Origin: a virus
Direction: 5' to 3' (one strand)
IMG/VR virus record: IMGVR_UViG_3300043449_000712
Span: 1-25,931 of that record
DNA: 25,931 nucleotides
Within the stretch, counting starts at the first letter, position 1; each line of letters starts with the position of its first letter. This document shows positions 1 through 19,152 of the stretch, piece after piece. The translations under genes were made by a program, and so were the position numbers. The notes under the pieces were generated by a model, which saw only the letters and a program-made list of their open reading frames with translations, ran no database searches and was not told where the DNA came from.

Positions 1-2
1 TG

Positions 3-1013
3 GTTCCAATTTTATATTACCACATTTGGGATAATGTCCCTGACCCATCTTATAATAGAAATTATTATGAGAGTTGTGATTGGTTAGGATGTATTTCTAA
101 ATTAACATATGGTATTGTTAATCGAGTTGGTAAATCGACCGAAAAACCATCATTTAAACCATTAGAGGATTGGCAAGTATCATATGTACCGCATGGTATC
201 AATGAAAATCTTTTCAAACCTTTGGAACACATATCTAATAAAGTAAGGACGATGGTCTACGGTGATAAAGAATATGATTTCATAGTTTTTTATAACAATA
301 GAAACATTAGAAGAAAGCAACCATCTGATGTTGTTCTATCATTTAATTTGTTTTGTGACAAGTTAACTAAAGAACAATCAAGTAAATGTTTGTTATTGAT
401 GAAGACATCTACTGTTGATGCGAATGGTACGGATTTAAGTGCAGTAATTAACACACTGTGTAAAGATTACGATGTGAAAATTATCGAAGAGAAGTTTGAA
501 CAAGAGACGTTAAATGAATTATATAACATTTCGGATTGTACGATTAACATTGCGAACAACGAAGGTTTTGGTTTAGCAACTGCCGAGAGTATCATGGCAG
601 GAACACCTATCATTGTAAACGTAACAGGTGGTTTACAGGATCAATGTGGATTTGATTATAGTGCAGATGATTACATTAACATCCAAACTCTTCACCATAA
701 AGACACATATGGAAAAACTGAACATGGTGAGTGGGCGTTTCCAGTTTGGCCGTCATCAATCAATGTAAATGGTTCACCAGTTACTCCATTTATTTTTGAT
801 GATAGAGTGAACAATGATGATGTTGCAAATTCAATTTACGAAGTTTATAACTTAGGTAAATCAGAAAGAAAATCTCGTGGATTAAAAGGTAGAGAATTTG
901 CAATTAAAAATCTCTCATCTAAAATTATGTGTGATGAGATGGTGAAAGGCATCGAAGGTGCTTTGGAAAACTATAAACCTAAAAAAAGATTTAATTTATA
1001 CAAAGTAATATGA
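3..1013 (+). CDS. GT4-like glycosyltransferase, 5' end outside window
   Basis: This is the C-terminal part of a GT-B fold, GT4-like glycosyltransferase. The reading frame is open from base 3, so the TTG at 222 is an internal codon, not the start. The stretch before it reads like protein of this family (HIWDNVPDP, then VSYVPHGINENLFKPL, the usual linker into the C-terminal Rossmann domain). The donor-binding signature is visible as NNEGFGLATAESIMAGTP at nt 553-609, with the E-x7-E pair of retaining GT4 enzymes. The protein should transfer a sugar from a nucleotide donor; donor and acceptor cannot be read. Its TGA overlaps the ATG of the next gene (ATGA), so the two are probably translationally coupled. 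Family assignment is firm; specificity is unknown. Confidence 0.9.
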   Translation, partial: VPILYYHIWDNVPDPSYNRNYYESCDWLGCISKLTYGIVNRVGKSTEKPSFKPLEDWQVSYVPHGINENLFKPLEHISNKVRTMVYGDKEYDFIVFYNNRNIRRKQPSDVVLSFNLFCDKLTKEQSSKCLLLMKTSTVDANGTDLSAVINTLCKDYDVKIIEEKFEQETLNELYNISDCTINIANNEGFGLATAESIMAGTPIIVNVTGGLQDQCGFDYSADDYINIQTLHHKDTYGKTEHGEWAFPVWPSSINVNGSPVTPFIFDDRVNNDDVANSIYEVYNLGKSERKSRGLKGREFAIKNLSSKIMCDEMVKGIEGALENYKPKKRFNLYKVI

Positions 1014-2260
1014 GTAAACCAGTAGTTTTATATAGGGGTCCAGTTAAAACAAGAAGTGGGTATGGTGCACATTCAAGAGATTTATTATGGGCATTAAGAG
1101 AAATGAATTTATTTGATATAAAAATTGACAGTTGTGGGTGGGGTGCAACTCCTCTCACCGCATTAGACAAAGAAAATGAATTTCATCAATGGATTGAGAA
1201 TAACATAGTTACTGAGTTAACAAACATTCCTGAAATATACATTCAAGTAACCGTACCAAATGAATTTAGAAGACTTGGTAAATTTAATATCGGTATAACC
1301 GCAGGTATTGAAACAACAGTGGCACCTAAAGAATGGGTTGATGGTTGCAACACGATGGATTTAATAATTGCAACTTCAAACTTTTCAAGAGATGTTTTAA
1401 TTTCAACTGTGTACAATGAGAATGAAAAAAATACCGGTAGATTAATTAAACAACATCGAATTCAAACACCAATCAAAGTATTGTTTGAGGGTGTGGACAC
1501 AAAAGTATATAACAATCTTTACAATGGTATTGATGTCGATATAAAAGAAGATTTCGCATATTTGTTTGTTGGTCATTGGTTAAAGGGTAATATTGGTCAA
1601 GATAGAAAAGATGTTGGGATGTTGATAAAATGTTTTTGTGACGCATTTAAGGATGGTGAGGACATGCCTGCGTTGATTTTAAAAACATCGTCAGCTTCAT
1701 TCTCAATCAAAGAAAGGGAATCTTTAATTAAAAAAATTGAGTCTATCGTTGGTGATAAAACTAATAAACCACCGATTTATTTATTATTCGGAGATTTAAG
1801 TGATGAAGAAATGAATGAACTTTATAATCACCCTAAAATCAAGGCAATGGTTTCAATCACAAAAGGTGAGGGATTCGGTAGACCATTACTTGAATTCACC
1901 ATGACAGGTAAGCCCGTAGTAGCGTCCAATTGGTCAGGACATAAAGACTTCTTATCATCCGATGGTTCAATAATGATTGGTGGTAAGTTAACTGATGTTG
2001 ACAATAGTGCAATTGATAATTTTATTATTAAAGGTTCTAAATGGTTCACCGCAAATTATGATGAAGTAGTGGGAGTTTTGAAATATGTAAAAACTGATTA
2101 TGAAAAATTATTAGTAAAATCGGAATCATTAAGAATTAAAAATAATGAAGACTTTACCTTAAATAAAATGAAAGAAGTGTTTCAATCTTATTTAGAACCC
2201 CACTCAAAAATACCAGAACAAACAAAATTAGTTTTACCTAAATTAAATAAAATCAAATAA
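1010..2260 (+). CDS. GT4-like glycosyltransferase
   Basis: A complete 416-residue GT-B glycosyltransferase. The N-terminus has the glycine-rich opening of this family (RGPVKTRSGYGAHSRDLL), which resembles the start of the large fusion protein at 13162-15882. The C-terminal domain carries EGFGRPLLEFTMTGKPVVAS near residues 288-307, with the E-x7-E pair that contacts the nucleotide sugar. The start ATG overlaps the stop of the preceding glycosyltransferase, and the next gene begins 1 nt after its stop. No signal peptide or membrane segment is visible, so it should act in the host cytoplasm. It is related to but clearly diverged from its neighbour, so the pair may add successive sugars (inference). 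Substrate unknown. Confidence 0.9.
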   Translation: MSKPVVLYRGPVKTRSGYGAHSRDLLWALREMNLFDIKIDSCGWGATPLTALDKENEFHQWIENNIVTELTNIPEIYIQVTVPNEFRRLGKFNIGITAGIETTVAPKEWVDGCNTMDLIIATSNFSRDVLISTVYNENEKNTGRLIKQHRIQTPIKVLFEGVDTKVYNNLYNGIDVDIKEDFAYLFVGHWLKGNIGQDRKDVGMLIKCFCDAFKDGEDMPALILKTSSASFSIKERESLIKKIESIVGDKTNKPPIYLLFGDLSDEEMNELYNHPKIKAMVSITKGEGFGRPLLEFTMTGKPVVASNWSGHKDFLSSDGSIMIGGKLTDVDNSAIDNFIIKGSKWFTANYDEVVGVLKYVKTDYEKLLVKSESLRIKNNEDFTLNKMKEVFQSYLEPHSKIPEQTKLVLPKLNKIK

Positions 2261-2261
2261 C

Positions 2262-2519
2262 ATGTCAAGAAAAAAGAAACAACAACCAGTACCTGACATA
2301 ACATCAGAAATGACGAGTGTTATTCAACACTTTATGCCTTGTGAATGGGTTATACAATTCGATAATGATGAACCTGTTGTGTTCACAGAATCAGACGAAG
2401 ATAGACCACTTAAAGAAGTTGTTATCACAATATCAAATCACAGTGAATCACATATAATGTTTACAGATAATAAAACCGGAAAAAAATTCAGAATCTATTC
2501 AAGACAAAAACAATCATGA
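2262..2519 (+). CDS. Small protein of unknown function (paralogue of next gene)
   Basis: An 85-residue protein I do not recognise. It starts Lys-rich and Gln-rich (MSRKKKQQPVPD) and continues into a predicted beta-rich part with alternating hydrophobic residues (WVIQFDNDEPVVFTES, then HIMFTDNKTGKKFRIYSRQ). That part aligns with residues 27-76 of the next gene product, which has FQFGDNEPIVFASG and NMTFTDDNNTFKLFARE at the same spacing, so the two probably come from tandem duplication. It begins 1 nt after the upstream stop and its own stop overlaps the next start. No signal peptide, membrane segment or metal site is visible. A small virion or accessory protein is possible, but the sequence gives no function. 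Confidence 0.7.
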   Translation: MSRKKKQQPVPDITSEMTSVIQHFMPCEWVIQFDNDEPVVFTESDEDRPLKEVVITISNHSESHIMFTDNKTGKKFRIYSRQKQS

Positions 2520-2755
2520 TGAATTTTAAGTTTTTTAAAGGTGATGAAACACCAAGTATATATTTTACACCACATAGATTCGAACCTCAAAACGTTGAGT
2601 TTTGTTTTCAATTTGGTGATAATGAACCGATTGTTTTCGCATCGGGTCCTAATGTATGTAGTATTAGTTTAAGTCCAACATCTAATAGTAACATGACATT
2701 CACTGATGATAATAACACATTCAAATTATTTGCAAGGGAGATAACAAATGTATAA
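2516..2755 (+). CDS. Small protein of unknown function (mosaic paralogue)
   Basis: A 79-residue protein without a recognised family. Two parts can be told apart. Residues 1-17 (MMNFKFFKGDETPSIYF) resemble the first 17 residues of the following gene (MYKFKFFEGLDKNTIVF). Residues 27-76 resemble the preceding gene (FQFGDNEPIVF and TFTDDNNTFKLFARE). The protein therefore links the N-terminus of one neighbour to the body of the other. It overlaps the upstream gene by 4 nt (ATGATG; either ATG could be used, differing by one Met) and the downstream gene by 8 nt. It is probably expressed with both. Function unknown. Confidence 0.7.
   Translation: MMNFKFFKGDETPSIYFTPHRFEPQNVEFCFQFGDNEPIVFASGPNVCSISLSPTSNSNMTFTDDNNTFKLFAREITNV
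2734..2740 (+). promoter_or_regulatory. Shine-Dalgarno site for gene at 2748
   Basis: AAGGGAG lies 7 nt before the ATG at 2748 and supports that start even though it sits inside the preceding gene. Clear Shine-Dalgarno sites are rare in this window, so this one stands out. Confidence 0.6.
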
Positions 2756-2990
2756 ATTTAAATTTTTCGAAGGGTTAGATAAGAATACAATTGTGTTTAA
2801 CATGGTTGATTTGGAACGTGAACACGGTTTAGACATCGAAGACGAATTAACTCATAGATTATCTGAACAAATTAGAGAAGAGATTGATAATGACATTATC
2901 AATGAATTAACAAGAAGAATAAACGGTGGTAGTAATCATGGTATTGATTACTTAAACCATTGGATTAGGATAGGAGATAATAGAGCATGA
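2748..2990 (+). CDS. Small acidic helical protein of unknown function
   Basis: An 80-residue protein. The first 17 residues share the FKFFxG pattern of the previous gene product. The rest is charged and predicted helical (LTHRLSEQIREEIDNDIINE), then a Gly/Asn-rich stretch (NGGSNHGIDYLNHW). Helices with an E-I-D-x-x-I-I pattern occur in several T4-like structural proteins, but the match is too short to assign a role. A Shine-Dalgarno sequence at 2734-2740 supports the start. Its stop overlaps the next ATG by 4 nt. No membrane segment or signal peptide is visible. Confidence 0.7.
   Translation: MYKFKFFEGLDKNTIVFNMVDLEREHGLDIEDELTHRLSEQIREEIDNDIINELTRRINGGSNHGIDYLNHWIRIGDNRA
2972..2976 (+). promoter_or_regulatory. 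Shine-Dalgarno site for gene at 2987
   Basis: AGGAG lies 10 nt before the ATG at 2987, inside the preceding coding sequence. It is the main reason to accept the short overlapping ORF at 2987-3190 as a real gene. Confidence 0.5.
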
Positions 2991-3190
2991 AATGTGAGAG
3001 ACATAGTTGGGACACTGATGATAGGGAATGGTGTTGGAAGTGTGAAGAATTAACCTTAAAAGAAAATAAACAAAAATATGAAGATAAGTTTCGCAATAAC
3101 AGTTTGCAACGAGTTGGAGGAAATCAAGAAATTAGTTCCGTTCTTATTGAAACACAAAAGACCTCAGGACGAGATAGTAATTCTATATGA
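2987..3190 (+). CDS. Small Cys/His/Trp-rich protein, possible zinc binder
   Basis: A 67-residue ORF. The first 30 residues look like real protein: MKCERHSWDTDDREWCWKCE has three Cys and one His at spacing that could bind zinc, with three Trp. The remainder is low complexity and is encoded within the first 113 nt of the glycosyltransferase that starts at 3078 in another frame. Either the overlap is real or the glycosyltransferase uses a later start, which is unlikely because MKISFAITVCNE is a typical family N-terminus. A Shine-Dalgarno site and the 4-nt overlap with the upstream gene favour a true gene. The last 35 residues may be incidental. Function unknown. Confidence 0.5.
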   Translation: MKCERHSWDTDDREWCWKCEELTLKENKQKYEDKFRNNSLQRVGGNQEISSVLIETQKTSGRDSNSI

Positions 3191-6219: not shown

Positions 6220-9200
6220 TTATTTTATTTTAGCTTCAAGTGCCTCAACTCTTGCTAATAATTCTTTATTTGTTTGAATTAGTAATGCTACTAATTTTTC
6301 ATATTTAACGGCTTTGTATCCATTTTCTCTTGTTGTTACAACTTCAGGTAAAACCTTCTCAATTTCTTGTGCTATAACTCCAATGTCGTGACCTTCATTT
6401 TCGTGTACACCTTCCATTGGGACCCAATCAAAGTGATAACCATTTACTTGCTTTAATATATCTAAAGAACCTGAGATTGTCAACACATTTTCTTTTAATC
6501 TTTCATCAGAACTTGCGTATGCGATTACGTCGTTAGATGCTCTGATTAAACCGACAGTTGTTGACGTTGTAGCTCCACCGACAATTAACGCACCTGTTAC
6601 AGATGTTGTACCTGCGTTTAACGTAACACCTCCGTTGATAGTTAAACCTGCAAATGTTGGTGTTGCACTTGTATGAATGTTTTGAGGTGTTGATATTGTT
6701 ACACCACCTGTAGCGGCACTTACACTTACTTGGTTTGCCGTTCCCGCTAATGACGTTACACCCGTGTTTGTAACTGTAACTGCACCTGTTGCACTTACGT
6801 TTGAACTCAAACCAGTATTAGTTGTTAATGACGTTACACCCGTGTTTGTAATTGTTACACCACCCGTAGCAACATCTCTAGATATACCTGTTCCTGCACT
6901 AATTCCTGTTACACCCGTGTTTGTAACTGTAACTGCACCTGTTGCACTTACGTTTGAACTCAAACCAGTATTAGTTGTTAATGACGTTACACCTGCGTTG
7001 TTTAATGTTACAGATGAACCTAAAGCAACCGCTCCACCACCACTCAAACCTGTTCCCGCTGTTACAGTTACTGATGAATTCGCCAATTTACCATTCGCTA
7101 CGGATGTATTAACCAATTGAGATCCGTTGATTGTTTTGTTAGTAAGGGTTTGTCCTCCACTTACAGTAACAAGTTCCACTTCGGCACCCGCCAAACCAGC
7201 TTCCCATACATCTGTAGTTTCGTCCCATATTAAACTTGCGTTTGTAGATGTTCCTCTTCTAATTTCAATACCACCATTTTGTGATGGGGTACCTGTTTCG
7301 TCTGAATTAAGAACTAAAATATTATCCCCAATATTAACCGTATTCGAATTGACTGTTGTAGTTGTACCGTTTACAGTTAAATTACCCGCGATTGTAACAG
7401 TTGTACCATCATCTGTGATGGTTGAGTTACCAACTGTTGAAGCTGATGTAAATTTAACAAGAACATTGTTTGTTCCTGAAACACTTACTGAAGTTCCTGA
7501 AGTTCCTGAACTACCTGAAGTTCCTGAACTACCTGAAGTTCCTGAACTACCTGAAGTTCCTGAAGAACCACTAGTTCCACTTGACCCACTAGAACCTGAA
7601 GTTCCTGAAGAACCACTAGTTCCACTTGACCCACTAGAACCTGAAGTTCCTGAAGAACCATTTGAACCTGAACTTCCAGATGAACCACTTGTTCCTGACG
7701 AGCCACTAGAACCTGAAGTTCCCGATGTGCCACTTGATCCATTAGAACCTGATGAACCACTTGTACCAGCAGTTCCTGAAGAACCGCTAGAACCTGAAGT
7801 TCCTGAAGAACCATTAGAACCTGATGAACCACTTGAACCTGAGGTTCCTGAAGATCCACTAGAACCTGAAGTTCCTGATGTGCCAGCTGAACCGCTAGAA
7901 CCCGATGTGCCACTAGTTCCTGATGATCCGCTAGAACCTGAAGTACCACTAGAACCATTTGAACCTGATGAACCACTGGTTCCTGATGAACCGCTAGAAC
8001 CACTTGTACCTGACGTACCAGCACTTCCTGAGGAACCACTTGTACCTGAAGTACCACTAGTACCGCTTGAACCTGAACTACCTGATGTACCCGCCGTTCC
8101 TGATGAACCTGATGTTCCTGAAGAACCACTAGAACCTGATGAACCCGATGTACCACTAGTTCCTGAAGAACCACTAGAACCTGAAGTTCCTGATGTACCT
8201 GACGTTGCGGCCGTGTATGATGTTCCGTTAATATTTAAACTTGTTACTCTTAATGAACCTGTAACTTCCGTATTTGTACTAATTCTTACAGTTGTACCAT
8301 CGTCAGTAATATTACTATCACCAAGATGTTCTTGACCTAAAGATTTTATTACTTTATTAAGTGTTGGTAATGTTTCACCACCTAAGTTATTATATGTTTG
8401 AGCTCCTACTAAAACTACTGAAGATGTAACTGTTGATTGATTTGTGTGAACATAAAGAAACTGATTGTTTAATGAATCAAATAACATTGAACCCGAAACA
8501 GTTGGTGATGATCCACTATCAATTACAGATAAACCCGCAAATCTCACACTTGGTGATGACGCGTTAACTGTTATTATATTGTCCGCAACTCTTAATTGTG
8601 ATGCTGTAGTAAATGTGATTGATGATGAACCTAAAACTGTTAAGTTTTGTGTGATAGTTAATGAACCGGTTATTTGTTGATTACCATTAACTCTTAATAA
8701 AGAACCATCAAATGTTAAATTTGCCTCTGCAGTTGCATTTGGTGCCGAACCATTTAATGTTAATAATGCATTATCTGTAGTTCCTGCAATTGTAACTGTT
8801 CCTGAAGAACCTGATGAACCACTGGTTCCTGATGAACCTGAACTACCCGATGTGCCGGCAGTTCCACTTGAACCACTAGAACCTGATGTACCACTTGACC
8901 CACTTGTACCACTTGTACCTGCAGTTCCAGAAGTTCCCGATGAACCACTTGTACCAGCAGTTCCTGAAGAACCACTAGAACCTGATGTACCACTAGTTCC
9001 TGATGAACCTGAACTACCTGATGTACCAGCTGTTCCTGAAGATCCACTAGAACCCGATGTGCCACTAGTTCCTGAAGAACCACTAGAACCTGATGTACCT
9101 GATGTACCTGAAGAACCGCTAGAACCTGACGTACCGGCCGTTCCTGAAGATCCGTTAGAACCACTAGAACCTGACGTTCCTGAAGATCCACTAGAACCTG

Positions 9201-9741
9201 AAGTTCCACTAGTGCCACTTGAACCTGAACTACCTGAAGTTCCTGCAGTTCCTGATGAACCACTAGTACCTGAAGTGCCGGATGTTCCTGAAGAACCAGC
9301 GGCAGCTAACCAAGTTGTTCCATTGTATCTATATATGTTGTTATCTGTGGTATTGTAATATACCTGACCTGATACAGTACCTGTAGGGTTTGCCGACGAT
9401 TTCGGTAATTGTAATGACCCCGTTATATTAACAGAACCAGTGAAGTTATGAAAATCGTCAAACGTGTTACCAAATACGTGTGAACCACTTGCAAATGATT
9501 CTGTTACATAAAGAACAGAAGAACTTACAATGTAGGATTGTGCACTTATTGATCCTGTAATGACTACATTTCCATTTATTGTTTGGTTTCCGTTGAATGT
9601 GTTGGATCCCGTGGTTGCACCACCTCCGACACTACCTTCAATGTTCGCACGTAACGTACCTGTTACTGTTAAATCACCTGTTATTCTTGCGGAACCCGAT
9701 ACCATCAGGGAACCGGTTACGACTGGGTCAAATATATTCAT
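6220..9741 (-). CDS. Tail fibre/adhesin with Gly-X-Y repeats and S74 chaperone
   Basis: A 1,173-residue virion fibre, and the largest protein here. The N-terminal part (1-145) is beta-rich with repeated V-x-G-S/T-L/I units (GSLMVSGSARITGDLTVTGT), ending in VYYNTTDNNIYRYNGTTW, a frequent fibre element. Residues about 148-313 and 512-750 are Gly-X-Y tracts made almost only of GTS, GSS and GTA. Between and after them lie more beta-repeat segments, including a duplicated GLSSNVSATGAVTVTNTGVT unit. Residues 1078-1173 are a peptidase S74 intramolecular chaperone: SDERLK carries the Ser-x4-Lys pair (S1078, K1083) of the autocleavage dyad known from endosialidases, followed by IGVIAQEIEKVLPEVV and a terminal coiled coil. 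The chaperone should trimerise the fibre and then cut itself off. The upstream heptosyltransferase-like gene makes Ser/Thr glycosylation of the tracts plausible (inference). Confidence 0.93.
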   Translation of the reverse strand: MNIFDPVVTGSLMVSGSARITGDLTVTGTLRANIEGSVGGGATTGSNTFNGNQTINGNVVITGSISAQSYIVSSSVLYVTESFASGSHVFGNTFDDFHNFTGSVNITGSLQLPKSSANPTGTVSGQVYYNTTDNNIYRYNGTTWLAAAGSSGTSGTSGTSGSSGTAGTSGSSGSSGTSGTSGSSGSSGTSGSSGSNGSSGTAGTSGSSGSSGTSGTSGSSGSSGTSGTSGSSGSSGTAGTSGSSGSSGTSGTSGSSGSSGTAGTSGSSGTSGTAGTSGTSGSSGTSGSSGSSGTAGTSGSSGSSGTSGSSGSSGTVTIAGTTDNALLTLNGSAPNATAEANLTFDGSLLRVNGNQQITGSLTITQNLTVLGSSSITFTTASQLRVADNIITVNASSPSVRFAGLSVIDSGSSPTVSGSMLFDSLNNQFLYVHTNQSTVTSSVVLVGAQTYNNLGGETLPTLNKVIKSLGQEHLGDSNITDDGTTVRISTNTEVTGSLRVTSLNINGTSYTAATSGTSGTSGSSGSSGTSGTSGSSGSSGSSGTSGSSGTAGTSGSSGSSGTSGTSGTSGSSGSAGTSGTSGSSGSSGTSGSSGSNGSSGTSGSSGSSGTSGTSGSSGSAGTSGTSGSSGSSGTSGSSGSSGSNGSSGTSGSSGSSGTAGTSGSSGSNGSSGTSGTSGSSGSSGTSGSSGSSGSNGSSGTSGSSGSSGTSGSSGTSGSSGSSGTSGSSGTSGSSGTSGSSGTSGSSGTSGTSVSVSGTNNVLVKFTSASTVGNSTITDDGTTVTIAGNLTVNGTTTTVNSNTVNIGDNILVLNSDETGTPSQNGGIEIRRGTSTNASLIWDETTDVWEAGLAGAEVELVTVSGGQTLTNKTINGSQLVNTSVANGKLANSSVTVTAGTGLSGGGAVALGSSVTLNNAGVTSLTTNTGLSSNVSATGAVTVTNTGVTGISAGTGISRDVATGGVTITNTGVTSLTTNTGLSSNVSATGAVTVTNTGVTSLAGTANQVSVSAATGGVTISTPQNIHTSATPTFAGLTINGGVTLNAGTTSVTGALIVGGATTSTTVGLIRASNDVIAYASSDERLKENVLTISGSLDILKQVNGYHFDWVPMEGVHENEGHDIGVIAQEIEKVLPEVVTTRENGYKAVKYEKLVALLIQTNKELLARVEALEAKIK
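6755..6840. repeat. 86-bp direct repeat, copy 1
   Basis: This stretch is identical, base for base, to 6908-6993. The two copies start 153 nt apart, a multiple of three, so they encode the same peptide in the same frame of the fibre (the unit containing NTGLSSNVSATGAVTVTN). Perfect identity at the DNA level implies recent duplication or gene conversion. Confidence 0.9.
6908..6993. repeat. 86-bp direct repeat, copy 2
   Basis: Second copy of the repeat at 6755-6840, identical over 86 bp. A diverged third related segment (GTTACACCCGTGTTTGTAAT) starts at about 6834, overlapping the end of copy 1. Recombination between the two copies would remove or add 51 codons without shifting the frame. Confidence 0.9.
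7490..8206 (-). repeat. Gly-X-Y Ser/Thr repeat tract 2 of the fibre
   Basis: About 80 consecutive 9-nt units coding for GTS, GSS, GTA, GSN or GSA. Glycine occupies every third position, X is only Thr or Ser, Y is mostly Ser, and there is no proline. The DNA is degenerate at third positions rather than perfectly repeated, so the tract is maintained at the protein level. The periodic base composition also keeps the other reading frames open, which creates long spurious ORFs on both strands. Confidence 0.92.
8800..9299 (-). repeat. Gly-X-Y Ser/Thr repeat tract 1 of the fibre
   Basis: About 55 units of the same GTS/GSS/GTA type as the second tract, starting just after the fibre's N-terminal head region. 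It has a regular higher-order pattern in which GTAGTSGSSGSSGTSG-like blocks recur. It is separated from the other tract by about 200 residues of beta-repeat sequence. No proline is present. Confidence 0.92.
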
Positions 9742-9801
9742 ATCTTATATAGTATTATACTTACATAAATACTACAAGAATTATATTTTGACCAACAAAA
9801 A

Positions 9802-11937
9802 TTAAAATATTAAACAATTAATTTCTTCAATAACACTTTCACTCATAATATTTTTACTACATTCAAATTGTCTTTCAGTTCCTTTGTGTTCAGGACACCA
9901 ATTCCAATCACCAGCATCGAATTCATGTTTGGACCAACAACCGTGACAAACTTCTTTATTTATAATACGGATAACACCACCTTCCAACGGTTCTAAATCA
10001 ACATCAGTGAATCCCGATATGATTACGGTTGGGATGTTGCAAGCCCAAGACAACCAACTTAAACCACTACTAATTCCTATAAAAAATTCAGATTCTTGTA
10101 ATAATTCTATTAAATCATTTAATGTTCCCTTGGGATTTCTAACAACTCCTTTGGGTTGGAAGTTACCCATGTATCCATCCTCTTCGGCAGAAATCAATCT
10201 AACTTCATATCCTTTGTCGATTAAATAATCAACAACTTCCTGCCAACCTGTCGGGTTATTCCAATATTTTGCTTGTGAGGTTGAGTGAATGGCAATACAA
10301 ACTCTCTTTTGTTTTTTCTTTTTAGTCTTTTTTAATTTTGGTTTTCTCTCTTCGTAATCTAAACCTAAAATATCCGAAGCAACCTTCAATAACGGTTCTT
10401 TTAATGGGTTGGTTGGGTGATACGACATATCGATGTGACGATTTGGTTTATCTCCTTTATAAAAAATTCCCAATCTATATAGTGCGGTGATTCCCGTAAC
10501 ATTACTTCCTGGCTCTACAAATTGTATATCAGGATATTGTGCTTTAAACAGATGATTGTGGAACGTTGAACAAACAACCTGAGCTTCCTTATCTGTCTTA
10601 AATTTCTCCACATATGGCATGAAAGCCAAAGTGTCACCTAATGATTTACTTTCAAAACTAATTAGAATTTTATTTCCTTTAGGTTGGATTAAATGTTCCA
10701 AGTGGAAATCATTATCAATTCCTTTTATAACGATTTTCCAATCAACATAATATTTTATACCACATTTCGCCCAATGATTACTCTTCAAATCTAATTCATA
10801 CATTACCTTATTGTTTAAAGTATTAATGAATTGAACGTGGTATAATGACTCAACCGATTCCTTGATTTCCACAAACGGACCATCTATATTATGTATGTTT
10901 ACCTTTCTATCTGAAACTTGGTTGGTGTGGTTCACACTATTTTTTCTTCTAAACTCCCCAAAATTATCTTTTAGATATTCATTAAAAATTTCAACTCCTT
11001 GGTAATATATTTTAACTCTATCTCCTTTTCTATATTTCCCAATACTTTCTAAAGAGTATTGTCCTTTAATAATATTATAGAACGATTTGTGTTTACCGTA
11101 ATTTACCTCGACCAAATAATCTTTTTCCGCGGGTTTTTCGTGGAAACCAGAAATAAAATGAACATACAGATTCTTATTGATGTCACCAACCAAATAAATT
11201 TGGAATCTTGCACCATTCCTATCCATACCATCCCTATTCCAAACCGCTTGGGTGTTTAATTCATTGTTGTTTGCGATGTACTTTGAGATTTCAATATTAT
11301 TAGTAACCTCTTTTAAGTGTTGTAAGAATACTCGTTCTAATTGCCAACCTTTCGGTCTGTTAACAAAGTATTCTCTTTTTGATTTAACCTTATCAATAAC
11401 TTGGACTGCAACATCAGTTTTAATTGAGAAGATGAATGTTGCACAATACTCTGCGAAATGTGTGTCTTTTGATGACCCCTCATTATATTCATATAACACA
11501 GCATCGTGGTTTCTACTATATTCTAAGAAAGCTTGTCTATATTGTATTGGGTCAGGTAAGTTATCATATTCTAAAAAGTGAATGTATTTCTTACCCAAGG
11601 TCTTTGCGAAATTGAAAGCGTTTCTCATTGCACACCATATCGCATAGTCGTGATGAAACTCCATTTTATTATCGGTTCTCCAATTTCCAATACTTGTCCA
11701 TCTACCACTTGAAACTCCGTAAGCCTCAAATTCGTGTTCCATTAATAAATCATTGTTCTTATCAAAGAGATAATAATCCACCATCTTTTGTATTTCAGGT
11801 TTAACCGCGTAGTGACCCGTTAATAAAATTGGGATGTTAAATTCTTTTAAGATTTTAATTAAACCAATTAAATCGTTTTCTTTACTCTTAGTGTCAGTCC
11901 AACAATCTATAATGAAAATATCGTCGTCAAAAATCAT
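9802..11937 (-). CDS. Two-domain glycosyltransferase with TibC/Aah-like O-heptosyltransferase half
   Basis: A 711-residue protein. Residues 1-250 look like a GT-A type domain: IPILLTGHYAV, then KYIHFLEYDNLPDPIQYRQA with an E-x-D pair where DxD is expected. From about 345 the sequence follows the layout of bacterial autotransporter heptosyltransferases: HNIDGPFVEI and a small beta domain with SNHWAKCGIKYYVDWKIVI, then LISFESKSLGDTLAFMPYVE, STFHNHLF, CIAIHSTSQAKYWNNPTGWQ and FIGISSGLSWLSWA. The end carries CHGCW, FDAGDWNWCPEHKGT and RQFECSKNI, giving Cys664, Cys667, Cys681 and Cys693. TibC uses a four-Cys iron finger at its C-terminus to form its dodecamer. Known relatives O-glycosylate Ser residues in autotransporter repeats. 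The gene lies immediately upstream of the Ser/Thr-repeat fibre on the same strand, 60 nt away, so the fibre is the obvious candidate substrate (inference). Confidence 0.82.
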   Translation of the reverse strand: MIFDDDIFIIDCWTDTKSKENDLIGLIKILKEFNIPILLTGHYAVKPEIQKMVDYYLFDKNNDLLMEHEFEAYGVSSGRWTSIGNWRTDNKMEFHHDYAIWCAMRNAFNFAKTLGKKYIHFLEYDNLPDPIQYRQAFLEYSRNHDAVLYEYNEGSSKDTHFAEYCATFIFSIKTDVAVQVIDKVKSKREYFVNRPKGWQLERVFLQHLKEVTNNIEISKYIANNNELNTQAVWNRDGMDRNGARFQIYLVGDINKNLYVHFISGFHEKPAEKDYLVEVNYGKHKSFYNIIKGQYSLESIGKYRKGDRVKIYYQGVEIFNEYLKDNFGEFRRKNSVNHTNQVSDRKVNIHNIDGPFVEIKESVESLYHVQFINTLNNKVMYELDLKSNHWAKCGIKYYVDWKIVIKGIDNDFHLEHLIQPKGNKILISFESKSLGDTLAFMPYVEKFKTDKEAQVVCSTFHNHLFKAQYPDIQFVEPGSNVTGITALYRLGIFYKGDKPNRHIDMSYHPTNPLKEPLLKVASDILGLDYEERKPKLKKTKKKKQKRVCIAIHSTSQAKYWNNPTGWQEVVDYLIDKGYEVRLISAEEDGYMGNFQPKGVVRNPKGTLNDLIELLQESEFFIGISSGLSWLSWACNIPTVIISGFTDVDLEPLEGGVIRIINKEVCHGCWSKHEFDAGDWNWCPEHKGTERQFECSKNIMSESVIEEINCLIF

Positions 11938-12506
11938 ATGTTGTATTTTAAATAATCCTTACCATTTTTTATTCCTGTGAAATATAAATCACAACTCTCA
12001 CCATTGTAACCAAATACACCATCAGGAAATGTACTTTTAAACCCATCAATGATCATAACATCTTCAGCAACTAAATTCTTATAATAATCGGCCCACTCAT
12101 CTTTCTCCATTAATAGAGGTGCAGCCCAACTACCATCACTTCTCCTTGTACCATGTTCCGCTCTACCTGTTGATGCACAAGTGAATAGAAACAATCCACC
12201 AGGTTTTAACATTCTCATTACATTAGTAATTGTTTTCTCATAATGCATGTCATGTTCAAACACTTCAGTTGAGATGATTGTGTCAAAATAATTGTCGGGA
12301 CCCTCGAATTCATGTCCAACACAAACTAAATCGACATTACGACCTTCACCAACATCTATTCCTAAGTAATCACAATCTTCAAACAAGTATCGATTTGATC
12401 CATTAATGTCTAAAGACCCAATGTCCAAGACTTTTTTATTTTTAAAATATTGTGGGTATTTTGATTTAACCGATTCACAATATCTGATTTGATTTAAATG
12501 TGCCAT
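11934..12506 (-). CDS. Class I SAM-dependent methyltransferase
   Basis: A 190-residue methyltransferase of the Methyltransf_11 type. KKVLDIGSLDINGSNRYLF is motif I, binding the methionine part of SAM. The Asp of CDYLGIDVGEG is the ribose-binding acidic residue after strand 2. YFDTIISTEVFEHD is motif II with the following His/Glu, and MRMLKPGGLFLFTCAS is the post-motif strand. GRAEHGTRRSDGSWAAPLL is an insertion where the acceptor may bind. The substrate is not readable; the setting among glycosyltransferases favours sugar O-methylation (inference). It overlaps the upstream gene by 1 nt (TAATG) and the downstream one by 4 nt (ATGA). Confidence 0.88.
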   Translation of the reverse strand: MAHLNQIRYCESVKSKYPQYFKNKKVLDIGSLDINGSNRYLFEDCDYLGIDVGEGRNVDLVCVGHEFEGPDNYFDTIISTEVFEHDMHYEKTITNVMRMLKPGGLFLFTCASTGRAEHGTRRSDGSWAAPLLMEKDEWADYYKNLVAEDVMIIDGFKSTFPDGVFGYNGESCDLYFTGIKNGKDYLKYNI

Positions 12507-13165
12507 TATCTTTTTGTTATTATTATAATTCCGTTTAGGAAGTTTATTGATTCAATATCGGTGATACAATCAGGTTGAGTTTCTTTTGATAGGTTTGTTA
12601 ACCAATCTTCTCTTCTTGCATGAACATTCTCAGTATCAAAATTTTGTAATCCTCTAAAATTAATATCGTCTGATAATTTCTTAAAGTATTCCATAGATGT
12701 GTTCTCTCTTAGAAATCCTCCACCCCATTCATCCCAATATGATGTACCCACATCTTCAATAATATAGATGCCACCTGACTTAACACTACCCCATAGATGT
12801 TCAAATGAATAAATTACATGTTCATTCATGTGTGAACCATCGTCCAATATCATATCAAATGGACCATATTGTTGCCACGTTCTGGATAAAAATGCACCAT
12901 CACCTTGTGAACCAATTTCAACTGATATTCTTGGTTCTTCATATTTTTTACAATCAGGATTAATATCGATTCCTAAAATATATGAACGATAAAAATATTC
13001 TTTCCATGTAAGTAAAGACTTACCATCCAATATTCCGATTTCAAGTATGTTTAACTTATCATATCTTTGGAATGGAATGTACTTCGCGTACTTATCACAA
13101 TAGTTGTGGATTTCAGAACTCTTATCGGTTCCATATTTTTTTGCCAAATCATTTAACGTACTCAT
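12506..13165 (-). CDS. Class I SAM-dependent methyltransferase, MycE/TylE-like
   Basis: A 219-residue methyltransferase. The opening (LAKKYGTDKSSEIHNYCDKYAKYI) and the core LNILEIGILDGKSLLTWKEY, ILGIDINPD, GDGAFLSRTW, FDMILDDGSHMNEHVIYSFE and SGGIYIIEDVGTSYWDEWGG match the family containing the macrolide sugar O-methyltransferases MycE and TylE. That family binds Mg2+ through acidic residues around DDGSH and methylates hydroxyls of sugars such as 6-deoxyallose. A role in methylating a surface or virion glycan is therefore reasonable. It overlaps the genes on both sides by 4 nt and 1 nt, so it is part of one transcription unit with the large fusion protein upstream and the second methyltransferase downstream. 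Confidence 0.88.
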   Translation of the reverse strand: MSTLNDLAKKYGTDKSSEIHNYCDKYAKYIPFQRYDKLNILEIGILDGKSLLTWKEYFYRSYILGIDINPDCKKYEEPRISVEIGSQGDGAFLSRTWQQYGPFDMILDDGSHMNEHVIYSFEHLWGSVKSGGIYIIEDVGTSYWDEWGGGFLRENTSMEYFKKLSDDINFRGLQNFDTENVHARREDWLTNLSKETQPDCITDIESINFLNGIIIITKR

Positions 13166-15882
13166 CTTGTAAAATATAACATTTGTAAAGCATTATTTGA
13201 ACCCATAAATAAAAGATATGAATTAAACCCTAGTTTATTCATTCGGTCTATTAAGTCTTGTCTAAGTTCTTCGTTGTAATCTAAATGTGCATGGTGATAT
13301 TCCATAGCCACAGTCTTAACCTTCATTAAGTTTTCATCTGAAATACCTGCGAACGCATGATGTTCCGCACCTTCAATATCGACTTTAAGAAAATCAATCT
13401 TATCAATTAAACCAGTTTCAAAAAGATAATTTAGTGTATAGGTTCTAACAGGATATGATATACCATCACCTGAACCAAGTAAAGTAGATCCACCCAAATG
13501 GTCTGTTTGATATAACGTAAACTCACCTATTGTGTCAGCGATGGCCGCATTAAATAAAATTGAACGTGGGTCGGCATTTAAAGATAGTAATTTAAAATAC
13601 CTCCTATCAGGTTCAAACGAAATCACTTTACTTGCACCTTGACTATAAGCCCATCTATTGAAGATTCCTACGTTACCTCCTAAGTCAACAACGACGTCAC
13701 CCTCATTTATAGTTCTTTCTCTATTCTTATAGTAATCCAACAAATTAAATATTTCATGATAGATTGCCCTAAACCAACCATACTTTTCTGCAACTTCTAT
13801 CGTTCCTCCTTCCACACCTTTTATGTCACCTAAATTCTCAACTTTATAAATGTCAGTATAGAAATATTCAGATTTATGAAAAGAATTATCTCTTTTCATT
13901 TTAATGAATTCAATCATCTTATCCGATATTTCCGCATTTTTATTACCGTGGAAGTAGATGATTTTAGATTTATCTTTTGGTATGAATTGATATCCAAATA
14001 TTCTATTGAAATTTTGCGGACCCTCTTCATTCCAAAACTTATAGAAATGGTCTAACATTTCATTAGTGTTACCTAAATCACCATCATAACCTGAAGTATC
14101 AAAGTTCGATAGTGGTAAGAATTTATTACATCCGTGTTTCCATCTCATCGCATTATCAATCCCCTCATCATTCCATAGGTAAAGACGTTTATAATCTTCA
14201 GGTTTGAGTTTAATTACTTTTATATAATGTTTAAGAATTTCATCAAACCAATCACCACAATTTTTATTGTAAACATAAAAACAAATGTGTGCATATGGAT
14301 TTCTTTTATTTATGCCCCATTCATTCGCCAATTGTTCGTTGAACAACTGTGAATTCTTTCCATCGTTGTATGTTCCAAAAAATTCTGTTTGTACGTGAAT
14401 ATCAGGAATCGGGTATGTTGATATTTGTGAGAAGTATTCTTTCACGTTATCAATGTTGTAGTTTACTACGACATCACCATCAATCCAAACGTAATTATCA
14501 AAATCCTCTTTAAGTGATTCCAAACAAGCCCATTGTTTCCAATACCACTTATCATGTTCTGAAATCTTATTTGTTTCTATTTTTTTCCTAATAACATTAG
14601 GATAATCGAATGGTACTTCACAATCGACACCATATACAATAATCTTATTATTTGAAAATTCTAATAGTGATTGAACAAGCTTTTCAATTACAGGCATATA
14701 TTGTAAATTACCTGTGGTTACAAATGCAAATGGTTTGTTATTTCTTTCCAATATTTCACAAGCACCTTTAGCAATTGTATCCCAATTAAAATCTTTATGG
14801 ATTCTCTTTGCGTCTTCCTTCGAACTAATCCACATTGCAGTGTTATAGTCATAAGCTTGACGTAATTTAAATTTTAAATCATCCCAATCAGGTTCACAAT
14901 AGTCACCAGGAAAATCTTTATGTTCATGATTAGCAGGTGTCAATCCTTTTATTGATACAGGAACACCTTTATCTGATGTAAATTGTAATTGTCCACCCCA
15001 ATTAGAATAAATCGATGGTGTACCACAAGCCATGGCTTCAATTAACGGTAAGTTCCAACCCTCACTTCTTGCACATGATACAAAAACATGCGCCTCTTGT
15101 AAGTATTTAACATATTCTTTCCTTGATGGGAAATTGATAAATTTAATATTCTTGGTATTAATACCATAATGTTCAATTCTTTCCTGTGTGGTCTTTAAAC
15201 CGTCTGAAGGAAATGGATTTTCTACCGATGCAATTAATTCAACATCATCGACATCATCAAATACCTCACCAAATGCTTTTAATATTTCAGTTGTACCTTT
15301 TCTCCACTCCCATCTTCCAAACATCACAAATCTTGTTTTCTTTCTTTTTGGGAATTTCTTTAGAGGTTTAAATGTTTCCACGTCAACACCTTCAGGTACT
15401 ATGAATACCCTTTCTTTTGGGTAACCTTGTTCAACAATACAATCGTATTGCCATTGAGTTGGGACCCACATTTCATCAAACGTAAGTAGTCTCTTAAAGA
15501 ATCCGTCACTGAATTTTGTTGACTCCCAAACACAGTATGCAATCTTATACCCTTCATAATTGTCATAATAATAATGGTTGTTATTCTCCATCAATACGAT
15601 ATGAACATCTGGTTTGAAGTCGGGGTCGTATGAATAGATTGGGTAATCGGTTCTTGAGTTATCACTATTAACAAGAGTTTGTTGGAATAACATTCCCTTC
15701 ATCTCATCTGTGATATATGACTCTCCGTCGTGGGGGGTTTTGTTATAACCTGACCAACTACCTCCAACGGTCATATTTCTAACCTTTACTTGGTGATACT
15801 TGTTAAGTGCGGTAAAGAAGGAACGAGCATGATTTGCATATCCCGTTGTACCGATGAATGGTGCGTGTGCTAATATTTTCAT
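13162..15882 (-). CDS. GT4 + GT-A + FkbM methyltransferase fusion
   Basis: A 906-residue protein with three domains. Residues 1-375 are a GT4 glycosyltransferase: start HAPFIGTTGYANHARSFFTA, linker VFIVPEGVDVETFKP, and SEGWNLPLIEAMACGTP near 272-289 with the E-x7-E pair. Residues about 380-640 look like a second, GT-A or GT8-like transferase: PFAFVTTGNLQYMPVIEKLV, then YVWIDGDVVVNY near 465 with DGD as the metal site. Residues about 715-906 are an FkbM methyltransferase: VVDLGGNVGIFNRWA, VISFEPDRRYF and FLKVDIEGAEHHAF. Such a protein could add two sugars and then O-methylate (cap) the product without releasing it (inference). It is preceded by 54 nt with a possible promoter, and its stop overlaps the next start. 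No frameshift separates the domains. Confidence 0.88.
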   Translation of the reverse strand: MKILAHAPFIGTTGYANHARSFFTALNKYHQVKVRNMTVGGSWSGYNKTPHDGESYITDEMKGMLFQQTLVNSDNSRTDYPIYSYDPDFKPDVHIVLMENNNHYYYDNYEGYKIAYCVWESTKFSDGFFKRLLTFDEMWVPTQWQYDCIVEQGYPKERVFIVPEGVDVETFKPLKKFPKRKKTRFVMFGRWEWRKGTTEILKAFGEVFDDVDDVELIASVENPFPSDGLKTTQERIEHYGINTKNIKFINFPSRKEYVKYLQEAHVFVSCARSEGWNLPLIEAMACGTPSIYSNWGGQLQFTSDKGVPVSIKGLTPANHEHKDFPGDYCEPDWDDLKFKLRQAYDYNTAMWISSKEDAKRIHKDFNWDTIAKGACEILERNNKPFAFVTTGNLQYMPVIEKLVQSLLEFSNNKIIVYGVDCEVPFDYPNVIRKKIETNKISEHDKWYWKQWACLESLKEDFDNYVWIDGDVVVNYNIDNVKEYFSQISTYPIPDIHVQTEFFGTYNDGKNSQLFNEQLANEWGINKRNPYAHICFYVYNKNCGDWFDEILKHYIKVIKLKPEDYKRLYLWNDEGIDNAMRWKHGCNKFLPLSNFDTSGYDGDLGNTNEMLDHFYKFWNEEGPQNFNRIFGYQFIPKDKSKIIYFHGNKNAEISDKMIEFIKMKRDNSFHKSEYFYTDIYKVENLGDIKGVEGGTIEVAEKYGWFRAIYHEIFNLLDYYKNRERTINEGDVVVDLGGNVGIFNRWAYSQGASKVISFEPDRRYFKLLSLNADPRSILFNAAIADTIGEFTLYQTDHLGGSTLLGSGDGISYPVRTYTLNYLFETGLIDKIDFLKVDIEGAEHHAFAGISDENLMKVKTVAMEYHHAHLDYNEELRQDLIDRMNKLGFNSYLLFMGSNNALQMLYFTR

Positions 15883-15941: not shown

Positions 15942-16599
15942 ATAATTTTTTACTGTCCATTAAGGAATAAAGGTAATGTGCAAAATCTAAATGTCCTTTG
16001 AAAGAGAAATGACCATCGTTTATTTTACCTTTAGTGTCATCTTTAATTTTATGAAATGTATTATATATTTTATCATCATCTTCTAATGACCACGTGTAAA
16101 AAAATTGTACTTTTTTATCTTTCTTGAGTCTATTCTCGATAAATTTAAATCTCTTCTTGTGTCTTTCTTTGTAAAATGGGTGATTTGAAAAATAATATTG
16201 GAAATTTAGTACCGCTTCAATTTTTTCTTTTTCTTTACTGTCATTACCGTCCCCAATTATTTTGATTGCATTTTCATAGGTTGACAAGACATTACGGGTA
16301 TAATCATCAAACGGAACCTCAATTCTACCGTGTAATGTCATGTTAACAATTACAACGTCCCCTTCGTTGATTTCATCATATTTTTCAATTATTGAATCAA
16401 ATATATAATCATTTGATGCTCCGTTCTTACCTAAATTTTTAACTTCGTAGTTCAATAATTTACCTAAATGATTTACCCAAACATCATCACCTTCTTTTTT
16501 ATATGGTAGATACTCTTCTTTAGTTTCCGACACACATAACTCATTACATCCGTGACCGAATGTCATTGAATCTCCAAATGTCCAAAGTGTGTTTTTCAT
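15937..16599 (-). CDS. SGNH/GDSL-like hydrolase
   Basis: A 220-residue SGNH-fold protein. Block I is LWTFGDSMTFGHG with the nucleophile Ser11. Gly60 and Asn63 in GKNGASNDY are the oxyanion residues of blocks II/III. NDGHFSFKGHLDFA at 194-207 supplies the Asp and His candidates of block V. Phage and bacterial proteins of this layout act as esterases or acyltransferases on carbohydrates. With FkbM and glycosyltransferase genes directly upstream, removal or transfer of acetyl groups on a glycan is the likely role (inference). No signal peptide is present, so it is cytoplasmic or part of the virion. It starts at an ATGA overlap with the FkbM gene, in the TTTAATATGA context shared by several genes of this strand. 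Confidence 0.82.
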   Translation of the reverse strand: MKNTLWTFGDSMTFGHGCNELCVSETKEEYLPYKKEGDDVWVNHLGKLLNYEVKNLGKNGASNDYIFDSIIEKYDEINEGDVVIVNMTLHGRIEVPFDDYTRNVLSTYENAIKIIGDGNDSKEKEKIEAVLNFQYYFSNHPFYKERHKKRFKFIENRLKKDKKVQFFYTWSLEDDDKIYNTFHKIKDDTKGKINDGHFSFKGHLDFAHYLYSLMDSKKLL

Positions 16600-17204
16600 A
16601 TTAAATTTATATAATTCTTATTAAAAAATTCAACGTTACCATCGTGATGGTGTTTATTAAGTTTATTGTTAATGTCTCTCCAATTACTTATTACAAAACC
16701 ATTATTTTTCAAAAAATCAACCACACTATGTAAGTCGTTGGTGACGTTTTTATATAATTCCTCACTAAAACTAACTTCAACCTTCCCCCTTTTTATTAAG
16801 GATAATTTATTTCCAAATGAATTTAATATTTTTAAATCATTTCCTTGTGCATCACAATGAAAATAATCAATCTCATCAATACCATTTTCATTTATAAATG
16901 TATCCATTCTTACAACATTAACATTTATCTGATTTTTAAATCTAACATTAGTATTGTTAATTGAGTAATCCGTTAGTTCGTTTAAAGATGATGACATTCC
17001 ATTGGTTGCAATATTAAATGATGAGGTTCCATTAAAATCGCTTACAGCCTTTTCTATTATCACCAAATTTTTATTATTAATAAATTTATCTTTTAATATT
17101 TTTATATTTGAGGGGTCAGGTTCAAAAGCCCACACCTTAGAATTTTTTAAGAATTCAAGTGTGTGTCCTCCATCGTTTGCACCAATTTCGATAATATTCA
17201 TCAT
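16596..17204 (-). CDS. FkbM family methyltransferase
   Basis: A 202-residue stand-alone FkbM methyltransferase. NIIEIGANDGGHTLEFL is SAM motif I, VWAFEPDPSNIKIL holds the acidic residue binding the ribose, VVRMDTFINENGIDEIDYFH and CDAQGNDLKILNSF match the V-D-x-x-G-x-E region of the family, and KRGKVEVSF is a late strand. FkbM enzymes methylate hydroxyl groups, often at glycan ends. It is distinct from the FkbM domain of the large fusion (about 180 residues of low similarity apart from the motifs). Two adjacent ATG codons at 17204 and 17201 overlap the upstream stop; either may be used. Confidence 0.87.
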   Translation of the reverse strand: MMNIIEIGANDGGHTLEFLKNSKVWAFEPDPSNIKILKDKFINNKNLVIIEKAVSDFNGTSSFNIATNGMSSSLNELTDYSINNTNVRFKNQINVNVVRMDTFINENGIDEIDYFHCDAQGNDLKILNSFGNKLSLIKRGKVEVSFSEELYKNVTNDLHSVVDFLKNNGFVISNWRDINNKLNKHHHDGNVEFFNKNYINLI

Positions 17205-17899
17205 AATAAAGTTTTATTTTTTATGAAACTACCAATCATATTCTTTTCCGCCATATGACAAATTCCATTAATGTTCAAATCGTCAAATGTCGGGTTTTTA
17301 TTATATAGATAATTTATATTATTAAAATATACATTTAAATATTGTTGATTCAAAGTGATTGGTGGTATATCATTATATCTTTTTGTGAAAAAATCATAAT
17401 TTAAATTAAGAATATTCAATACGTCCGAATATGTTTTATTAACATTAAGATAGTCGTTTGAGCCGATTATACAAGTGTTATTTAATTCGTTGAAATCTAA
17501 TGGTATGTCTGAATATCTTTTATATATTTCAGTAAAATGATTCGTTTGTTGTTCCGTTAGTGGGTGTTTATATCCTAAATTTAATCTGTCTTCCTTAATT
17601 ATGTTTCTTAATTTACTAAAATCATTTACAATTAAGTCATTATCTAAGTGTATAAACGGAAAATGTATTGTTGACAACACTTTTAATTTAGGATATGACC
17701 ATAGTGATGGTTTTTTATGTTTAATATCAATATCAAACCCCACCCAATCATAATTTAATTTAGTATTTTTAAAGTAATCCTTATCTGAATATATTATAGG
17801 GGTTATATTTTGAGCATTTAAATTTTCAATTGAATACTTTAAATAGATTTCAGTAACTTCTTTAAGTCTGATTGGTAAGTATGTAAAAACTACTTTCAT
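17201..17899 (-). CDS. Putative GT-A-like glycosyltransferase
   Basis: A 232-residue protein. The start MKVVFTYLPIRL, followed by a helix and ITPIIYSDKDYF, fits a nucleotide-sugar binding Rossmann-like half. SLWSYPKLKVLSTIHFPFIH leads directly into LDNDLIV, a DxD-type motif near residue 96. NNTCIIGSNDYLNVN and NGICHMAEKN near the end resemble the later acceptor and metal-ligand (His) positions of GT8/GT-A-like enzymes found in Bacteroidota and phages. The family name is not certain, but a metal-dependent glycosyltransferase is the best reading. It overlaps the upstream gene by 1 nt and the downstream gene by 4 nt. Confidence 0.65.
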   Translation of the reverse strand: MKVVFTYLPIRLKEVTEIYLKYSIENLNAQNITPIIYSDKDYFKNTKLNYDWVGFDIDIKHKKPSLWSYPKLKVLSTIHFPFIHLDNDLIVNDFSKLRNIIKEDRLNLGYKHPLTEQQTNHFTEIYKRYSDIPLDFNELNNTCIIGSNDYLNVNKTYSDVLNILNLNYDFFTKRYNDIPPITLNQQYLNVYFNNINYLYNKNPTFDDLNINGICHMAEKNMIGSFIKNKTLL

Positions 17900-19149: not shown

Positions 19150-19152
19150 AAA

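Follow-up and report, generated by a model that had tools for sequence, protein, structure and literature searches.

The window, which is the whole stretch of DNA analysed, is a virus contig of 25.9 kb from IMG/VR that also carries a Gp23-like fragment. It encodes a protein of 711 residues with the features of a two-domain glycosyltransferase and, 60 bp downstream of its gene, a collagen-like tail fibre; two methyltransferases and a GT4 glycosyltransferase-FkbM O-methyltransferase are encoded on the other side (Table 1). The second of these methyltransferases (phrog_21658) is the one situated directly before the enzyme gene in most of the relatives, as revealed by synteny comparison. The genes often terminate in TTAATATGA or TTAATATAATG and either overlap the following start codon or run directly up to it. 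As an explanation for the repeated C-terminal Leu-Ile, a T4-type late promoter (TATAAATA) was ruled out, with 6 matches against 6.1 expected.

Table 1. Genes and features identified at the locus, with the evidence for each
Feature	Position	Strand	Evidence
1173-aa tail fibre, likely acceptor substrate	6220..9741	(-)	Pfam Collagen and Peptidase_S74; PHROG tail fibre families
Peptidase_S74 intramolecular chaperone, fibre C-terminus (residues 1078-1135)	6337..6510	(-)	57.7 bits against a cut-off of 22 bits
Gly-(Ser/Thr)-(Ser/Ala) run 2, 79 triplets (residues 515-751)	7489..8199	(-)	Triplet count
Gly-(Ser/Thr)-(Ser/Ala) run 1, 56 triplets (residues 149-316)	8794..9297	(-)	Triplet count
711-aa two-domain glycosyltransferase	9802..11937	(-)	N-terminal GT-A-like and C-terminal TibC-type (GT-B, GT9-related)
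TibC-type catalytic domain (residues 346-711)	9802..10902	(-)	TIGR04414 score and Foldseek match to 4rap
Four-Cys finger (residues 664-693)	9859..9948	(-)	Alignment; model confidence low here
D435 codon (SLGD), equivalent of TibC catalytic base Asp110	10633..10635	(-)	Alignment
N-terminal 345 residues, possible second sugar transferase	10903..11937	(-)	Model matches GT-A enzymes
SAM-dependent methyltransferase	11934..12506	(-)	Pfam/PHROG matches; 4-bp overlap with enzyme gene
Second methyltransferase	12506..13165	(-)	phrog_21658, synteny
906-aa GT4 glycosyltransferase-FkbM O-methyltransferase	13162..15882	(-)	Domain matches, synteny

The initial annotation had described an adjacent fibre with about 135 Gly-(Ser/Thr)-(Ser/Ala) triplets, and the count is exactly 135, in two uninterrupted runs. 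The X position is occupied by Ser (72) and Thr (63) and by nothing else, and the Y position by Ser in 119 triplets (88%), Ala in 10, Asn in 5 and Val in 1; Pro and Lys are absent from the runs. Five stretches of the fibre match the Pfam Collagen family (PF01391) with 179 bits. The triplets represent six tripeptides encoded by 47 different 9-mers, and the pattern is therefore kept at the protein level and not by DNA slippage alone.

The C-terminal part of the 711-residue protein belongs to the Aah/TibC type. The profile TIGR04414 matches residues 365-707 with 270.8 bits (1.7e-80), above the curated family cut-off of 200 bits, and the best sequence match in the PDB is TibC (4rap/4rb4, E 6e-56). 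A model of the catalytic domain matches 4rap in Foldseek with an E-value of 2.7e-31 and a TM score of 0.83 (0.80-0.84, by target length). The profile search of residues 345-711 and the structural comparison with TibC, both proposed in the initial annotation, thus bear out its assignment of the protein. PHROGs gave no match for this enzyme. Asp occurs at the position of D435 in all 106 rows of an alignment comprising autotransporter-clade, bacterial triplet-linked and viral groups, and the donor-site residues of TibC are kept (T553, K557 and W628 for T226, K230 and W305). The four Cys residues pointed out earlier, C664, C667, C681 and C693, align in sequence with C339, C342, C358 and C370 of the TibC iron finger, and together with D435, T553, K557 and W628 they are invariant across 28 viral homologues. 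Phe265 and Val266 of the TibC beta-hairpin thumb are placed opposite Y589 and M590 in a gapped region of the alignment.

The N-terminal 345 residues have no match in Pfam. A separate model of this part (pLDDT 86) matches sugar-nucleotide enzymes of the GT-A fold with E-values of about 1e-5. The previous description of the entire part as GT-A-like therefore stands at the level of fold for residues of about 1-238, and the region of about 239-325 forms an additional beta domain in the model.

The enzyme had also been likened to the bacterial autotransporter enzymes, and this needs correction as to clade: in a quickly built, midpoint-rooted tree it falls outside the 20-row autotransporter (Aah/TibC) clade. 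Chromosomal homologues of methanotrophs and other gammaproteobacteria adjoin small secreted or lipoprotein-like proteins with GTS/GSS repeats; in Methylobacter luteus the neighbour is a triplet protein of 287 residues. The two autotransporter-clade members that were tested both adjoin AIDA-type adhesins, and no GTS/GSS-triplet proteins were found near classical members of this clade. The phage enzyme is a member of a large separate group that accompanies collagen-like Gly-Ser/Thr-X proteins, not beta-helical autotransporters.

The survey of co-occurrence suggested in the initial annotation shows the pairing in both directions. Among 51 viral TibC homologues distinct at 90% identity and chosen regardless of triplets, 38 have a Ser/Thr-rich Gly-X-Y protein in the same record (36 within the locus and 2 elsewhere), and in 9 cases the triplet gene starts 20-103 bp downstream of the enzyme, on the same strand every time; no triplets are present near the enzyme in L033, L075 and L084. 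Conversely, when 50 viral contigs of at least 20 kb were picked solely by eight consecutive Gly-Ser/Thr-X triplets, TIGR04414 was found above cut-off in 20 of them, including 7 of the 10 contigs of at least 100 kb. The corresponding figure is 0/50 for random viral contigs (Fisher p 2e-7), which also have no triplet matches, and 0/44 for contigs with GGNCC repeats (p 4e-7), 40 of which encode Gly-Pro-X runs. The triplet contigs with no such match above cut-off may be fragments, or represent other solutions. A terminase-based control for lineage yielded mostly short contigs and was set aside.

By means of the neighbouring GT4-FkbM protein, 25 loci have been collected. The enzyme lies next to the GT4-FkbM gene in 18/18 loci that extend far enough, and the fibre follows the enzyme in 14/14, with triplets in 13 and the fourteenth cut by the contig end; the fibres that are not cut short have 27 to 250 triplets. 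The cassette of GT4-FkbM, methyltransferase, enzyme and fibre is conserved among close relatives, and the cultured Microcystis phage Mel-JY01 has the GT4, FkbM and TibC domains fused in one protein, with a triplet ORF in L082. The link between enzyme and fibre is strengthened by these observations, since it rests on more than one locus, namely on co-occurrence in both directions, on operon conservation and on independent cases in bacteria. As many phages that are unrelated to one another, and ordinary bacteria too, show the pairing with triplets, the enzyme probably glycosylates the fibre. Searches of open-access papers turned up no published case in which a phage fibre is paired with a TibC-type enzyme.

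Most GT9 enzymes are heptosyltransferases for LPS, and the glycosyltransferases of the island, including the TibC-type enzyme, could modify the LPS or O-chain of the host against superinfection, the fibre being adjacent by virtue of a shared host-recognition island. Fibre modules and glycosyltransferase genes do occupy the same hypervariable islands, and this is the published reading of fibre-adjacent glycosyltransferases in pelagimyophages (PMC7029224). However, the C-terminal domain is TibC-like with a four-Cys finger and not WaaC-like, the enzyme goes with Gly-Ser/Thr-X proteins and not with the Gly-Pro-X contigs, and its bacterial homologues are paired with short proteins made of triplet repeats; in neither L543 nor L558 were LPS genes recognised in the surroundings of the homologue. 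A role in LPS modification is hence improbable.

We regard it as similarly unlikely that the targets of the enzyme are other virion proteins or fibre segments outside the triplets (the TGSL/ITGS beta-repeats, for instance), with the triplets serving as a passive stalk. Such a role would agree with the known substrates of TibC, which are beta-helical passenger domains (PMC4358343), and with L024, where the enzyme is located between fibre-like genes having TGS-rich repeats and no Gly-X-Y runs. Against it, the bacterial partners in L552, L554, L555 and L558 (6500-6889) have little beyond a signal sequence and triplets, and between phage relatives the fibre ends are swapped while triplets and enzyme are retained. 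An association by descent, with enzyme and triplet fibres frequent in the same lineages of aquatic phages and no functional link, is very improbable: both genes do reside in the large accessory islands that metagenomic phages carry, and no TIGR04414 match above cut-off is seen in 30 of the 50 triplet contigs, but the homologues extend down to 33-40% identity in records of 9 to 735 kb with differing gene order and strand, separate bacterial groups have the same pair, and immediate same-strand adjacency keeps recurring.

Based on homology, the conserved active site, the operon, the two-way co-occurrence and the parallel bacterial pairs, we consider it likely that a clade of TibC-type O-glycosyltransferases is specialised for collagen-like Gly-(Ser/Thr)-X proteins and that its member here glycosylates the phage's own fibre, a putative substrate, since genomic association cannot establish it as one. 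The enzyme would transfer a sugar onto Ser of the 135 triplets before or during trimerisation. Because TibC glycosylates Ser and not Thr (PMC4358343), the acceptor is more likely to be Ser, found mostly at the Y position, than Ser and Thr alike. By homology the sugar would be heptose from host ADP-heptose. Arg286 of TibC reads adenine and is required in that enzyme (PMC4358343); it is aligned with Leu609 here, and Arg occupies the position in 19/20 rows of the autotransporter clade, 9/16 of the bacterial triplet-linked group and only 10/70 of the viral group, so that ADP-heptose need not be the donor. The heptosyl part of the earlier term heptosyltransferase-like is less sure for the phage enzyme. 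Sugar-nucleotide genes of the HldE type are rare: among 50 records examined for HldE/RfaE domain II there were 8 weak matches, all below cut-off, which support neither possibility. The fused GT-A-like domain, the GT4-FkbM protein and the two methyltransferases would probably extend and O-methylate the first sugar, giving a fibre with glycosylated shafts. Glycosylation may stiffen or solubilise the proline-free collagen-like shaft, or shield it.

A broader proposal, which we slightly favour, is that a so far unrecognised branch of TibC in phages and bacteria such as methanotrophs is dedicated machinery for collagen-like Gly-Ser/Thr-X domains, and that phages, with fused glycosyltransferases and O-methyltransferases, coat their long fibre shafts in methylated oligosaccharides from a donor possibly other than ADP-heptose. 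Heavily glycosylated tail fibres, in which one chain could have as many as about 250 Ser/Thr sites, are accordingly predicted in many phages, and the Gly-Ser/Thr-Ser repeat is a candidate protein glycosylation tag, also in bacterial secreted proteins. A testable substrate is thereby offered for phage glycosyltransferases of a kind usually assigned to LPS modification. If the shafts are glycosylated, receptor binding, stability and the laboratory production of such fibres would be affected.

The enzyme for mimivirus collagen acts on hydroxylysine, and the sugars of Bacillus BclA sit on Thr. The predicted system has in common with these the glycosylation of a Gly-X-Y protein by a virus- or bacterium-encoded enzyme, and differs in the TibC-type enzyme and in triplets without Pro or Lys; mimivirus collagen glycosylation and the glycosylated BclA collagen-like proteins have been reviewed (PMC8968730). 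Mycobacteriophages are also known for self-encoded virion glycosylation (Freeman et al. 2023, as cited in PMC12363180 and PMC12619734), and a phage enzyme acting on its own structural proteins, as predicted here, is the common feature; their targets are capsid and tail tube proteins, and the citing passages name no fibre or collagen-like acceptor. In the host-recognition islands of pelagimyophages, which are hypervariable, genes for glycosyltransferases likewise lie clustered with those for tail fibres, whereas the parts of that report considered here read these enzymes as LPS-modifying and describe no TibC-type enzyme or fibre acceptor (PMC7029224). With TibC and Aah themselves (BAHT, TIGR04414; 4rap, 4rb4; PMC4358343) the phage enzyme shares the fold, the catalytic Asp, the donor-site Thr, Lys and Trp, the four-Cys finger and a catalytic domain scoring above cut-off. 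It differs in belonging to a separate clade, in the replacement of Arg286, in its extra N-terminal GT-A-like domain and in its partner, which is a collagen-like fibre in place of an AIDA/TibA-type autotransporter.

A domain family of autotransporter O-heptosyltransferases (TIGR04414, hepto_Aah_TibC, also known as BAHT) has been assigned by profile search to residues 365-707 of the 711-residue enzyme, at 270.8 bits over a cut-off of 200 bits. The best sequence match in the PDB is TibC, which is also the top fold match of the AlphaFold2 model (TM 0.83 by target length, E 2.7e-31); WaaC-type LPS heptosyltransferases and heptosyltransferase II are far weaker matches (E 1e-8 to 1e-6). The functional residues taken from the TibC structure paper (PMC4358343), namely Asp110, Thr226, Lys230 and Trp305, align with D435, T553, K557 and W628, and the four iron-binding cysteines with C664, C667, C681 and C693. 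The family match, the likeness to TibC and the four-Cys finger proposed in the initial annotation are thus borne out. Arg286, which contacts adenine and is required in TibC (PMC4358343), is replaced by Leu; Arg occupies this position in 10 of 70 viral sequences against 19 of 20 of the autotransporter clade. Tandem pairs of TibC-type ORFs or matches are seen in a viral locus (L073, 9938-12008) and in a triplet-picked contig (G045, 4622-6558).

The window is a virus record of 25.9 kb. The enzyme and fibre ORFs lie 60 bp apart in the same direction, and the fibre, expected to hold about 135 Gly-(Ser/Thr)-(Ser/Ala) triplets, has exactly 135 Gly-X-Y, split between two runs. Position X is always Ser or Thr (135/135) and Y is Ser in 119 (88%); 47 different 9-mers encode only six tripeptides. 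The C-terminal end is a Peptidase_S74 chaperone (Pfam). Three 2OG-Fe(II) oxygenase-like ORFs are also encoded, and hydroxylases close to a collagen-like fibre could be of relevance.

Positions of the features discussed
Feature	Position	Strand	Basis
80-aa ORF, short piece of T4 major capsid protein family Gp23	2748-2990	+	34.6 bits
1173-residue fibre ORF	6220-9741	-	ORF calling
711-residue enzyme ORF	9802-11937	-	ORF calling
Neighbouring GT4-FkbM protein	13162-15882		
2OG-Fe(II) oxygenase-like ORF	19647-20213	-	
496-aa ORF	21214-22704	-	No Pfam match
2OG-Fe(II) oxygenase-like ORF	23869-24438	-	
2OG-Fe(II) oxygenase-like ORF	24438-25109	-	Under Pfam cut-off
Tryptophan halogenase, C-terminal part, cut by contig end	25093-25929	-	PF04820, 175 bits

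The pairing of enzyme and triplet protein is found widely among viral sequences. From 80 viral loci fetched with the enzyme, 51 homologues distinct at 90% identity were considered, including the window and phage-collection loci and excluding those chosen by triplets. A protein of Gly-X-Y triplets in which Ser/Thr make up no less than half of the X and Y positions is encoded inside the locus in 36 and elsewhere in the record in 2 more (38/51); the 13 homologues with no triplet protein include many cut by the contig end. Nine of the 51 have the fibre on the same strand as the enzyme gene, beginning 20-103 bp downstream of it. Conversely, 50 viral contigs, none shorter than 20 kb, were picked only by eight consecutive Gly-(Ser/Thr-like) codon triplets; 20 of them encode a TIGR04414 protein over the cut-off (7/10 of those of at least 100 kb). 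Control contigs drawn with arbitrary words of 14 and 16 bases have neither enzyme (0/50) nor triplets (0/50). The enzyme is also absent from 44 GGNCC-repeat contigs, 40 of which encode Gly-Pro-X runs, so it is the Ser/Thr triplets that the enzyme accompanies, rather than collagen-like sequence generally.

No Pfam family matched the N-terminal 345 residues, and their predicted structure fits GT-A-fold sugar-nucleotide enzymes (E ~1e-5, TM-scores 0.3-0.5), in keeping with the GT-A-like character suggested before. The TibC-type domain of most viral homologues forms the C-terminal portion of a longer chain, with about 700 residues or more in all; Pfam detects Glycos_transf_1 (GT4-type) in 41/49 of these and the FkbM methyltransferase in 4/49, so the domain is as a rule fused to another module that transfers sugars. 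The GT-A-like partner is one among several kinds. Seven viral loci (L036, L041, L042, L044, L062, L063, L076) encode a stand-alone relative of this domain (about 330 aa) upstream of their TibC-type gene.

A search with the neighbouring GT4-FkbM protein retrieved 25 close loci. Where they reach far enough the order is kept: GT4-FkbM, usually a methyltransferase, the protein with the N-terminal and TibC-type domains (18/18) and the fibre (14/14). Triplets occur in 13 of the 14 fibres, the remaining one being cut by the contig end. What varies is the set of other accessory genes, the ends of the fibre and the count of triplets, which runs from 27 to 250 where the fibre is uncut. In Microcystis phage Mel-JY01 the GT4, FkbM and TibC-type domains occur in a single 1226-residue protein with a triplet open frame 1.7 kb away. 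The conserved operon and this fusion support a single pathway that would attach a first sugar and then extend and methylate it, in an order that is our inference. At the start of the Mel-JY01 record (L082, PP395634.1) a long Gly-Ser/Thr triplet frame (2-3049) is absent from the annotation, which has an opposite-strand ORF (739-2298) in its place.

The acceptor of TibC is Ser rather than Thr (PMC4358343), and across viral fibres Ser takes the Y position in 78% of triplets on average; together with the higher share in this fibre, these make Ser at Y the first-guess acceptor. With Arg286 replaced, the donor may be something other than ADP-heptose. HldE-like genes are rare in the viral records examined, and a donor would hence have to be host-supplied. 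The sugars of BclA, a glycosylated collagen-like protein of Bacillus, are thought to aid hydration (PMC8968730), which by analogy would suit the proline-free fibre shaft. Shielding, reported for mycobacteriophage virions (PMC12363180, citing Freeman et al. 2023), may be another benefit. For fibre-adjacent glycosyltransferases of pelagimyophages the published view is LPS modification (PMC7029224); for TibC-type enzymes a protein acceptor is more likely given the present data.

The minus-strand region 16596-25109 includes several consecutive ORFs ending in -(S/T)LI or -LL. In many cases the DNA of these ends reads TTAATATGA or TTAATATAATG, which overlaps or abuts the next ATG, and most starts are without a Shine-Dalgarno sequence. 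Our guess is a Bacteroidota-like host. The 496-aa ORF has a Cys/Trp-rich end and, by appearance, a putative Hint/intein-like middle.

A bacterial genome scan gave 515 relatives. Among the best 80, those nearest the phage enzymes belong to Methylobacter, Methylomicrobium, other Methylococcaceae and several gammaproteobacterial groups, and adjoin small proteins whose start is a signal sequence or resembles a lipobox and which carry GTSGTS or GSSGSS in long stretches. Such uncharacterised secreted or lipoprotein-like proteins are encoded in L543 (7031-7891), L545, L546, L549, L550, L552-L555 and L558-L560; in L558 a DUF6502 gene immediately precedes the enzyme. L541, L542, L551 and L557 could be phage sequences that ended up in bacterial bins. 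Within the same 80, the classical group (Kosakonia, Lentisphaeria and others) has no GTS/GSS-repeat protein near the enzyme, and two examples adjoin AIDA-type adhesins. In a quick maximum-likelihood tree, whose midpoint rooting leaves the direction of change unreadable, the 20 autotransporter-type sequences form one group (SH-aLRT 99), and in a separate group of 87 (support 97) 72 members are labelled as triplet-linked.

The heptosyltransferase-like assignment thus holds for family score, fold and most active-site residues, but not for the autotransporter partner and clade or for Arg286, and because of these two differences the enzyme is placed outside the autotransporter heptosyltransferases. 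It is assigned to a distinct clade that is related to the BAHT family, and probably works like TibC.
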